This document shows positions 5,291 through 54,872 of a stretch of 64,000 bases of DNA, piece after piece. Under the pieces are notes generated by a model, which searched no databases, had not been told where the DNA came from, and saw only the letters and a list, made by a program, of their open reading frames with translations. Position 1 is the stretch's first letter, and each line of letters opens with the position of its first letter. This DNA is from Caldilineaceae bacterium (lineage in GTDB: Bacteria; Chloroflexota; Anaerolineae; Caldilineales; Caldilineaceae), in NCBI GenBank assembly GCA_022821585.1, contig JAJEDI010000050.1:124001-188000 (forward strand), given 5' to 3'. The position numbers and the translations under genes were made by a program.

Positions 5291-5629
5291 GGGTGCATCC
5301 CAGATTTGGGGTGGGAACAATCTGGCGGGGAATCGGTGCCGGCGGTGGCTGGAATTGTTTACCAGCTTTGTGATAGACACAGTGCGCGTGCCTGGTCCGG
5401 CCGTACGGCGGAGTTCGTCAGCCAGGGGTGCCAGAGAAGGCACAGGGCCGGCACCTACAGGGAACTGATGGGACTGGCGGGACGTGGTCTGGCCAGACAC
5501 CTTCGATCAGGCACCTGTCACCAATATCGACACCCGGTCGACCAGGCATGTTGTTGGCCGGGGGCGTTGCGGGGGCGGAGCCCCTGCACAAGGGAGGGCC
5601 GAATAGGCCCGACCGCCCAAAACTGCAAA
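5291..5629. repeat. Dispersed non-coding element, copy A (GGGTGCATCCCAGATTTGGGGTGGGA ... GC-rich hairpin ... GGGCCGAATAGGCCCGACCGCCCA)
   Basis: Aligns along much of its length with 54457-54735 and at both ends with 26686-26900. Confidence 0.8.
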
Positions 5630-14970: not shown

Positions 14971-15564
14971 ATGGCTCGCATGAAAGTACTGCTAACTGAA
15001 GATGTACCGAGTTTGGGCCTTGCGGGCGAAGTCCACACGGTGGCCAGAGGCTATGCCCGCAACTATCTGCTTCCGCGCAGAGAGGCGATTCTGGCGACCA
15101 GGGGGGCATTGAAGCAGGCGGAGGACATCCGTCATGCTGCTATACGAAAGCGAGCGCAGGAACGATCGAATGCCGATGCCCAAGCGGAGGTACTCAGCGG
15201 CCAGCAACTGCTCTTTAACGTGAGGGCAGGAGACAACGACCGGCTTTACGGCTCGATAACAGCCTCGGATATCGCCGAACGAATAGAGGAGACGGTTGAA
15301 TTCGAAGTGGACCGAAGGCGAATCGCCTTGAATCAGCCTATTCGGGAGTTGGGCGTGTACGACGTGACAATTCGGTTGATGGCAGAAGTAGAGGCTACGT
15401 TTGGCGTTGCGGTCGTGCGGGAAGGTGAGAGTTGGGCGGATGCAGAACAGCGGGAACGGGACCGTGAGGCAGCGGCACAAGCGGAAGCTGAGGCGGAAGC
15501 CGTGGCTGAGTTGGCGGATGATGGATTTGCTGCCAACGCGGAGGAGGAGTCGGCAACAGGCTGA
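14971..15564 (+). CDS. rplI: 50S ribosomal protein L9
   Basis: [40 protein letters not shown]. Confidence 0.96.
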
Positions 15565-15606
15565 TCAAAGCGGTCGCTTGTACTGAAAACACTATAGAAT
15601 TTCCGG

Positions 15607-15639
15607 CGGACAGGGCGCAGACCCTGTCCGTTTCTGTTT
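15607..15639 (+). terminator. Terminator after rplI
   Basis: cggacaggg-cgcaga-ccctgtccg followed by tttctgttt. Confidence 0.75.
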
Positions 15640-15820
15640 GTCCGGGCCGGGCGAATGAGCGCTGCGAAAGGTGCAGGACCCTAGCTGTATAATGCCGCGC
15701 AGAACAGCCATTCATGTCCTCAGGAGGGCCCCGACGAAAGGCCTTTTCGAGAAGTTTTTTCCATTCTTTCACTACTGCCCGGCCCCAAAAGTGGTTGGGT
15801 GCGGGACCGGCTTCAAGCGC

Positions 15821-15922
15821 GGGTGTATCCCAAATTATTGTCCGCCCAGTAGAGTTGATTCGTCGACCAGGCTGGATTCAACACTGGTAAGACGAGTCTC
15901 GCAAAAAATCTGGGATGCACCC
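15821..15922. repeat. 102-bp MITE-like element, tandem copy 1
   Basis: Terminal inverted repeats GGGTGTATCCCAAATT / AATCTGGGATGCACCC; identical to 15932-16033. Confidence 0.9.
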
Positions 15923-15931
15923 TCAGCCCCA

Positions 15932-16033
15932 GGGTGTATCCCAAATTATTGTCCGCCCAGTAGAGTTGATTCGTCGACCAGGCTGGATTCAACACTGGTA
16001 AGACGAGTCTCGCAAAAAATCTGGGATGCACCC
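15932..16033. repeat. 102-bp MITE-like element, tandem copy 2
   Basis: Identical to copy 1; outer flanks of the pair are tcaagcgc (15813-15820) and tcaagcgc (16034-16041). Confidence 0.9.
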
Positions 16034-16267
16034 TCAAGCGCTTTTCGCTGGCCAATTTCGGGCAAATCAGGTATACTTAATGATGGCAAAAGTCCAGCCT
16101 GTAAGTGTCCAGGGCGCACAGCGTTTCCGCAGTTGGTGAGGCCCCCAGGGGGTCACTGAAGGCCATTAGGCGGGAGCCGGTTTCGACCCGGACTCAGGGA
16201 CAAGGTCACCGAAACTGATAATGGCGGAGGCCATGACACAGAGTGAAATAGTGGCGGGAGAACGTGA

Positions 16268-18892
16268 ATGAGCGAGCCAAACGGCATAGACGACGCAGCC
16301 CCCGGTGAGAATGGAATGGGCGGTTTACCGCACGAGCCGACCTCCCAAAACGGGGCCAACGGCAACGGCATGTTTGCCCAGAGCGTCGAGGGAGTATCCA
16401 TCGAAGATGAGATGCGCACCGCCTTTCTTGACTATGCGGTCAGCGTTATCGTGGCGAGGGCACTGCCTGACGCACGCGACGGGCTGAAGCCGGTCCACCG
16501 CCGCATCCTGTATGCCATGCACGATATGGGGCTGCGAGCTAACTCATCCTACAAGAAGTCGGCCCGCATTGTCGGAGAGGTGCTGGGCAAGTATCATCCC
16601 CACAACGACCAAGCGGTCTACGATGCGCTGGCGCGCATGGCGCAGGAGTTCAGCCTACGCTACCCACTTGTAAACGGCCAGGGGAATTTCGGCTCGATCG
16701 ACGGCGACAGCCCGGCGGCGATGCGTTATACGGAGGCCAAGCTGGCGCAGCTAACCGAGATGCTGCTCCAGGATATCGAAATGGATACGGTCGATTGGGG
16801 ACCGAATTTCGATGATAGCCTAGAAGAGCCGCTGGTACTGCCTGGGAAGCTGCCCAACATGCTGGTCAACGGCTCAAGTGGCATCGCGGTGGGCATGGCC
16901 ACAAATATCCCCCCGCATAACCTGAGTGAAATCTGCGATGCTGTGGCCCATGTGATCGACAACTGGGAGCGGCGTGAGCAGATCGGTCTTGAAGAGCTGA
17001 TGGAACTGGTGAAAGGTCCGGATTTTCCAACCGGTGGCGAGATTCTGGGGACGGAAGGGATTCGCCATGCATTTGCCACCGGGCGCGGCCGCATACTTGT
17101 GCGCGCCAGAACGCAGATTGAGGAGACGGACAGCGGTCGATTCCGCATCATCGTCACGGAGATCCCGTACCAGGTCAACAAGACGACATTGCTGGAGCGG
17201 ATCGCCGAGTTAGCCCGGTCCGGTCGGCTGGACAGTATCAGCGACTTGCGGGATGAGAGCGACCGGAGCGGCATGCGGATCGTTGTCGAGTTGAAGCGGG
17301 GTGCGTCGCCGAGAAAGAAGCAGAACCGTCTCTTCAAGTTCACACCACTGCAGTCCACCTTCAGTGTCAATGCCCTTTCGCTGCTGAACGGCAGGCCGGT
17401 GACGCTGGGATTGCGGCGGGCACTGCAGATCTACATTGATCACCGGTTCGAGGTGATTACGAGGCGCACCGAGTTTGACCTGTCAAAGCAGCGCGAGCGG
17501 GCGCATGTCCTGGAGGGTTTGCGCATCGCGCTGCAGTTTCTTGACGAGGTCATTGCAACGATTCGCAATGCCGCCAGCGCGGAGGAGGCACGCACACAGC
17601 TTGTGGAAAGGTTCAGCCTGAGTCTGGTTCAGGCGCAGGCGATCCTGGACCTACAGTTGCGACGCCTGGCGGCGTTGGAGCGGCAAAGGATAGAGGATGA
17701 GTACCAGGAGGTGATGGAGCGCATCGCCTATCTGGAAGACCTGCTGGCCAATCCGCCGAAGATTCGCGGCCTGATTCGTGACGACATCGTCGAGATGAAG
17801 GAAAAATATGGCGATGAACGGCGCACGGGAATCTTACATTACGCCAGCGGCGACTTCAGCGACGAGGACTTGATTCCGCAAGAGAACGTGCTGATCAGCT
17901 TCAGCGCCAACTCTTACATCAAGAGAATGGAGGCCGATAGCTTCCGGGCGCAAGGTCGCGGTGGACGCGGGGTAAGGGGGATGTCGACACGGGGCCAGGA
18001 CGAAGTCATGGACCTGCGCTTTGCGCGTACACTGGACCACATACTCTTCTTTACCAATAAGGGAAGGGTCTACAGCAGCCGCGTTTACGAGTTGCCGGAG
18101 GGCAGCCGCACCTCTAAAGGGGCGCACATCGCCAACATTCTCACGCTGCAGCCCGATGAACAGGTCACGACGATGTTGACTTTGGGCGACTTTGAGCAGG
18201 CCTCCTACATTACGCTCCTTACGCGCAAGGCTCGCATAAAGCGGGTGAAGGCGTCGGCGTTCTCGAATGTTCGTCAAAGCGGCGTCATCGCCATGAACCT
18301 GGACCAGGAGGACTCGCTGGAGTGGGCACAGTTGACGAATGGCGGCCAGGAGTTCATTATCGTGACTCGCGGGGGCAAGGCGCTGCGGATGCGCGAGGAC
18401 CAGGTGCGAGCCATGGGTCGAACGGCGGCCGGTGTTTGGGCGATGCGTCTGCGTGATGACGATCTAGTCACGGGCTTCGATGTAGTGCAGCAGGGAGCCG
18501 ATCTTTTTGTATTGCACGAATTCGGGTTAGGCAAGCGTGTCTCACTTGAGGAGTACCCGCGTAAAAACCGGTATACGCAAGGGGTATGGTCGACGGACCA
18601 CAGGAGGCTTGGCGAGTTGGGGCCTATTATCGCGGCGCGGGTTGTCACTGAGAATGACCAGATCACTGTAATCACCGGCAACGGCATCGTGTTGCGCACG
18701 GCGGTTTCGGGTATCAGTCACAAGGGGCGCCCAACGATGGGTGTGCGCATCGTCAATCTGGATGAAGGCGATACGGTTGCGGCACTGGCCGTACTCAGGC
18801 ACGAGGACTTAGTCCGCAAGGTCGAGGGCACCGATCCTAGTGGGCCGGGCGAAGCCGTCAATGGTTCCTCGCCCGTGGCAGTAGCCGAATAG
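16268..18892 (+). CDS. gyrA: DNA gyrase subunit A
   Basis: [57 protein letters not shown], GyrA-box-like [12 protein letters not shown]. Confidence 0.95.
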
Positions 18893-26685: not shown

Positions 26686-26900
26686 GGGTGCATCCCAGAA
26701 TTGGGGTGGGAGTGGGAAGGAACAAGGCCTGCCCTTAACTTAGTCGCGTCAGGGGGCTTCGCGGCACGACTTGGGCGAGCGACCGGCGGCATAGAGACGA
26801 GATCGAAACTCGGCGCCAAGGTGGTATAGCTGGAGGGGGGCGTTGCGGGGGGAGTCCCCCCGCACAAGGGAGGGCCGAAGGCCCGACCGCACAACTGCAG
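26686..26900. repeat. Dispersed non-coding element, copy B (possibly extending to a degenerate right end near 27003-27018)
   Basis: Starts GGGTGCATCCCAGAATTGGGGTGGGA; carries GGGGGGCGTTGCGGGGGGAGTCCCCCCGCACAAGGGAGGGCCGAAGGCCCGACCGC. Confidence 0.75.
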
Positions 26901-27038
26901 TGGTCAGTGGCTAGTGGTCTAAGGTGGCGCTTTCCTTGCCCGGAATTGAACGCGGATTGGTTATGGTTTCGTTGTTGCCAAAGGTGCAGGAGAACTCGCT
27001 TACAAATTGGGATTCACGCATTTCTGCGGCGGGCTTGA

Positions 27039-54456: not shown

Positions 54457-54872
54457 GGCGTGCATCCCAGGTTTGGGGTGGGAACAGTCCGGCAGGGAAT
54501 CAGTGACAGCGGTGGCCGGAATTGTTTGCCGGCCTTTGAAAAGAAACAGGGCAGGCGCGTGGCATGGCCGTGGAAGGACTTGATGTGACTGACTGGACGT
54601 GGTCTGGCTAGACACTTTCGATTGGGCACTTGTTGCGAATATCGACACCAGGTCGACGAGGCATGTTGTTGGAGGGGGCGTTGCGGGGGCGGAGCCCCCG
54701 CACAAGGGAGGGCCGAATAGGCCCGACCGCCCAAAAAAAGCGAGGAGAGAGTGAAGAGGAGTGAGGAGAGAGAACTGTCGTTTCCCATGCCGCAGAATGG
54801 ATGGCGGCACGGCTATGGTTTAGTCGCTGCCAGAGGATTGCGAGAGTTCACCCCCATTTTGGGATACACCCG
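54457..54872. repeat. Dispersed non-coding element, copy C (apparently with both ends)
   Basis: Left GGCGTGCATCCCAGGTTTGGGGTGGGA; homologous to copy A through 54735; right end CACCCCCATTTTGGGATACACCCGC is the inverted terminus. Confidence 0.75.

Follow-up and report, generated by a model that had tools for sequence, protein, structure and literature searches.

Two identical copies of a 102-bp MITE form a tandem pair between rplI and gyrA in a Caldilineaceae draft genome, and this pair is almost certainly an ISKra4-type MITE targeted to the predicted gyrA promoter. In a fuller account, to which we give a probability of about 0.6, MITEs of this type were targeted to and stacked at a promoter like that on contig C10, and the stack was then transposed to gyrA as a unit. 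The window, meaning the whole 64,000-nucleotide stretch of DNA analysed, is C68:124001-188000 of a 5.49-Mb genome in 102 contigs, and was compared with the rest of this genome and with sister genomes of the same genus.

The tandem pair and its MITE family

The first copy (15821-15922, + strand) has its right end towards gyrA, and the second (15932-16033, +), which adjoins the promoter, matches it at 100% identity over 102 bp. If a TCA present 3' of both units is counted, the repeat length is 105 bp. Each unit is bounded by 16-bp terminal inverted repeats, GGGTGTATCCCAAATT and GGGTGCATCCCAGATT, agreeing at 14/16 positions (15821-15836, +, and 15907-15922, -, in copy 1; 15932-15947, +, and 16018-16033, -, in copy 2). 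A 9-bp spacer, TCAGCCCCA (15923-15931, +), separates the copies, and the same 8-bp sequence, TCAAGCGC, stands to the left (15813-15820, +) and right (16034-16041, +) of the pair. Sequence comparison upheld the two identical units and their flanks as given in the initial annotation, and Pfam upheld its placement of the pair between rplI and gyrA (16268-18892, +; PF00521, E=2e-156, and PF03989).

The predicted promoter of gyrA (score 10.4, offset 16, spacer 17) has a -35 box TGGCCA (16049-16054, +), 15 bp from the MITE end and kept in five sister genomes, and a -10 box TATACT (16072-16077, +), 17 bp after the -35 box and also conserved in sister species. The leader that follows (16084-16267), about 185 bases from promoter to start codon, is partly conserved among sister species, and an Rfam search of 15500-16400 gave no match above threshold.

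The two 102-bp units are MITEs and hence non-autonomous. The unit holds no transposase gene, as expected of a MITE, and the reading is sound because the genome contains 15 near-full-length copies, most with their own 8-9 bp direct repeats (e.g. TTCCTGCC, GTAGAGTA, GAAATGCC and ATCAGCACC). Eleven are 100% identical: the two in the window and nine other full-length copies. The MITE-like identity first proposed from the window alone is thereby confirmed, and the further copies with duplicated flanks that the proposal implied were found at most other MITE loci. Searches with the terminal motif returned 292 genome matches at ≤3 mismatches versus 28 for a reversed control pattern, and 159 versus 1 at ≤2 mismatches. 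Like other bacterial MITEs, including MITEAba12 (PMC6382973), the unit is short, non-coding, bounded by terminal inverted repeats and apparently mobilised in trans. Related ends also delimit a longer element family of about 460 bp with two end types, which resemble those of a second ISKra4 lineage (L218, L219).

At the corresponding gyrA site, sister genomes G003 and G014 are empty and carry a single copy of the target position (TCAGGCCG / GGCATCAGGCCGATTTCGC), and the site is empty as well in the more diverged G011. These empty sites in relatives, with their single copy, support the reading of the outer 8 bp as a target-site duplication, as the initial annotation had supposed. In G005 this base is occupied by another element, of 462 bp, equally far from the gyrA promoter, and an end of this G005-type element occupies the same gyrA position in G001, so that two different elements have inserted at one base position in separate lineages.

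Insertion upstream of predicted promoters

To our knowledge, promoter-seeking bacterial transposons are few. In the elements described here, insertion takes place 15-16 bp before the -35 box of predicted sigma-70 promoters. Flanks and ends were analysed on 1.81 Mb taken as stretches, many of them picked around known matches, so that counts per stretch are not densities; these stretches yielded 128 element ends with usable flanks (≤2 mismatches to the terminal motif). TTGACA (≤1 mismatch) occurs in 24 of these flanks at offsets 16-17 and in at most 2 at any other offset, and TATAAT in 33 at offsets 39-41 and again in at most 2 at any other. A combined promoter score above 7 at the fixed offset was obtained for 51/128 ends, versus 0.6% of random positions. 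Full-length IS copies in sister species likewise stand upstream of a -35 box at this distance. From promoter anatomy, the element end should fall in the UP-element region. Selection alone was rejected as the source of the promoter association, since random insertion followed by selection would not be expected to yield a peak two bases wide.

Orientation is fixed in the 102-bp family: in this genome and sister genomes together, 18 of 28 copies have their right end facing a predicted promoter, and no copy has its left end facing one (two-sided binomial p = 7.6e-6, copies taken as independent). The approximately 460-bp family shows no orientation preference (promoter-facing ends, 18/39 vs 15/34). 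Targeting to a fixed position upstream of promoters explains both the location of the pair at gyrA and the frequent side-by-side arrangement of elements; the promoter and its approach stay intact after each insertion, the site therefore remains a target, and stacks follow.

TnGBS/ISLre2 and the ISKra4 group are known to insert upstream of sigma-A promoters with 8-9 bp duplications, end asymmetry setting the orientation (Guerillot et al. 2014, PMC3942029). Members of the ISKra4 group (p-MULT 4) insert 13-17 bp upstream of the -35 box and have ends with a terminal C (G on the other strand), and Chloroflexi are among their reported hosts (PMC3942029). The present elements resemble this group in their distance of 15-16 bp from the -35 box, which lies inside the 13-17 bp range, in the 8-9 bp duplications and G-starting ends (terminal C on the other strand) of the MITE, and in the transposase family of the partner IS, which scores above the NF033572 cut-off in sister species. 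Unlike the ISKra4 IS, the 102-bp element is a non-coding passenger found in identical, stacked copies. Its orientation is strict, in contrast to the promoter-targeting ISKra4 members of PMC3942029, which had promoters on both sides. TnGBS/ISLre2 (p-MULT 3) are similar in having a fixed orientation and in inserting upstream of sigma-A promoters, at a distance of 15-17 bp, but they have another transposase family and are conjugative elements or full IS, not MITEs. Promoter targeting is thus already known for the ISKra4 group, and what is unusual here is the clear record of element pile-up; a literature search of open-licence papers found none on ISKra4-derived MITEs, their stacking, or the movement of stacked units.

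A probable ISKra4-family partner

Several contigs of this genome end with MITE-like IS termini (C45, C77, C98, C99 and C101, and C26, C50, C74 and C77), breaking inside a longer IS with the same termini and, on the left side, always after 140-141 bp. Against the ISKra4 transposase model (NF033572), the left-side stubs align to the final 25 positions (E 2.9e-5, 27.3 bits), and a search of the genome for the IS body with the ISKra4 family model returned five C-terminal stubs only, all at contig ends. Complete ISKra4 elements of 1,448-1,458 bp are present in sister species of the same genus. One of these, L214 (G001, 1,458 bp), agrees with the stubs at 97% over 140 bp on the left and 95% over 255 bp on the right, and its transposase passes the NCBIfam ISKra4 model NF033572 (234.8 bits, cut-off 205). 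The MITE matches the L214 IS at 96% over its last 25 bp (right end) and at 15/16 positions over the 16 bp of its left end. Because the transposase body is missing from the assembly, mobilisation of the MITE is deduced from these shared ends, which suggest that an ISKra4-family, Mutator-like DDE transposase acts on it in trans. The initial annotation had called for a trans-acting transposase and an IS sharing the MITE termini; both expectations agree with the ISKra4 ends and partial transposase at contig ends of this genome and with the complete elements in sister species.

Alternatives for the family and for the IS body were set aside. Against the ISLre2 model (p-MULT 3), the partner transposase scored 81.6 bits, below the cut-off of 200; C90 1-530 has a similar right end and no recognisable transposase frame; and end pairs 1.1-2.3 kb apart (C1, C2, C6, C17 and C43) had poor ends, lacked a duplication and were put down to chance.

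ISKra4 transposases of this genus are encoded in two overlapping frames, split at a conserved GGGNTTTTTCCCCCTGGA-like run (L214, 2441-2809 and 1462-2496, - strand; L216, 1200-1565 and 1513-2547, + strand; also L213 and L218). Identical multi-copy elements in G012 share the split, and its recurrence there makes programmed +1 (or -2) frameshifting, or two separate proteins, likely.

Stacked elements and the origin of the gyrA pair

Of 21 cases in which neighbouring element ends lie ≤40 bp apart, 16 have a spacing of 8 or 9 bp (possible range 0-40), and stacks with 8-9 bp spacers are also found in sister genomes. In the C9 stack, made up of a 465-bp element and a MITE, ATCAGCACC is present three times around the two elements; on C45 and C77, a MITE and an IS ahead of a predicted promoter are bordered by ATGCCGGA; and on C98 and C72, presumed to join through the IS, CCCAAAAA stands between an old element, the IS and a MITE, again ahead of a predicted promoter. 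The order on C72 is IS end, CCCAAAAA, MITE, CCCAAAAA. C94 has the same IS end, CCCAAAAA and MITE, but its outer flank is CCTAACTT, the left outer duplication falling beyond the contig end. C72 and C94 most likely represent a case parallel to the window pair, in which a pair of unlike elements moved as a unit. In two sister species, G001 and G005, the spacer CTTCGCGCA precedes a MITE, separating it from the end of an older element (L203 262-473 and L210 245-346), and the outer flanks differ, as if here too stacked pairs had moved together.

The window pair has TCAAGCGC outside and TCAGCCCCA inside, and TCAGCCCCA is the left flank of the single MITE copy on C10, where 8 of its 9 bases equal the C10 duplication and the right flank is CAGCCCCA. 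By our own estimate, a 9-base match with any of the 13 other loci would arise by chance with a probability of about 5e-5 (13 / 4^9). The spacer had been described as partly resembling the local flank, and the identity of the copies as suggesting very recent duplication or conversion; such an event at gyrA was not supported, as the spacer matches the C10 flank and does not derive from the gyrA flank. Local tandem duplication of a single MITE at gyrA, by replication slippage or unequal recombination, would suit two identical direct repeats with a short spacer, but slippage would leave TCAAGCGC as the spacer and not the C10 flank, and identity is uninformative when 11 copies across the genome are identical. 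The spacer largely refutes this explanation, which would need conversion of the spacer from C10, and we consider it improbable.

It is very improbable that a single gyrA copy was assembled as two, even in a draft genome of 102 contigs broken at related IS: the spacer is a specific, non-local sequence, and further stacks with 8-9 bp spacers are seen in sister genomes. Moreover, every contig end that falls in the related IS includes 140-141 bp of it, and such overlaps suggest assembly at k = 141, longer than the 111-bp period of the pair.

Since the spacer matches the C10 flank, the pair most likely arrived at gyrA as a unit. In the mechanism we propose, the transposase would join an element 15-16 bp upstream of a -35 box, with the right end of a MITE promoter-ward, duplicating 8-9 bp of the target, and later insertions would land between the earlier element and the promoter, leaving an 8-9 bp spacer. 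Two MITEs would have become stacked in this way around TCAGCCCCA at the C10 promoter, or at a site with the same flank. The pair, recognised by its outermost ends, would then have been transposed as one 213-bp unit into TCAAGCGC before gyrA, and C10 would afterwards have been reduced to one copy. This last step is an assumption and counts against the account, as C10 now has one copy; because all MITE copies are nearly identical, the donor copy is untraceable by internal variants.

No such collapse is assumed if the transposase itself made the dimer, an explanation that differs from ours in the origin of the dimer only, family and targeting being the same. The ends of the C10 copy, or of two copies, would have been joined in an IR-IR junction enclosing 9 bp of donor flank, comparable to the circles of Mutator-type elements or to IS30-type dimers, and the resulting head-to-tail dimer would have integrated upstream of gyrA in a single step. 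The window spacer is exactly 9 bp of the C10 left flank, circles of IS256, TnGBS and Mycoplasma ICE hold 6-10 bp of donor flank between their ends (PMC3942029), and IS256 is listed with dimer-forming IS (PMC9333248). The donor-flank spacers of TnGBS/ISLre2 circles recall that of the window pair, and tandem dimers of the IS30, IS21 and IS256 types share with it direct repeats, a short spacer and possible joint movement. However, a monomer circle would deliver a single copy, so that a dimeric circle or a two-copy junction is required, and IS30 dimers have a 2-bp spacer made by end joining (PMC9333248), compared with 8-9 bp here. In the C9, C72 and C45 stacks the spacer equals the outer duplication, which indicates that ordinary successive insertion occurs; many spacers here are of this kind, unlike those of IS30 dimers. 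A transposase-made dimer, though the strongest alternative, is therefore rather unlikely, and we favour the account in which two MITEs stacked at a promoter like that of C10 and the pair then moved to gyrA together.

More tentatively, targeting may build composites: with its own target preserved by each insertion, unrelated elements would stack at one promoter with 8-9 bp spacers and move as units, and MITE ends may replace the upstream contact region of promoters. If so, MITE ends would occupy the UP-element position of many promoters in this Caldilineaceae genus, gyrA included. Element ends number from 19 to 210 per genome across 17 genomes of the genus, which thus offers a natural data set with readable duplications, oriented beside unoriented families, and stacks from which the insertion order can be read. 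It could serve to ask how promoters are located by an ISKra4 transposase, perhaps via RNA polymerase, and whether MITE ends in the UP-element position alter the expression of essential genes such as gyrA.

An exception to the general pattern is the MITE at C92:8658-8759 (G000), which has neither a matching duplication nor a promoter. Its right flank, GGGCAGGG, is also the flank of the IS left end on C77:1-141, and a shared flank of this kind would fit transposition of a larger composite or a rearrangement between MITE and IS.

The window holds further family members. At position 5291 is a family end whose partner end was not found, and at 26686-27019 a 334-bp member; in each, a predicted promoter lies outward of the left end at the usual fixed distance. 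A 414-bp element of the longer family, at 54458-54871, has a good outward predicted promoter at the fixed offset from each of its ends (scores 11.2 and 10.6) and lacks a target-site duplication; its two promoter-facing ends may have been brought together by recombination between copies or by an adjacent deletion.
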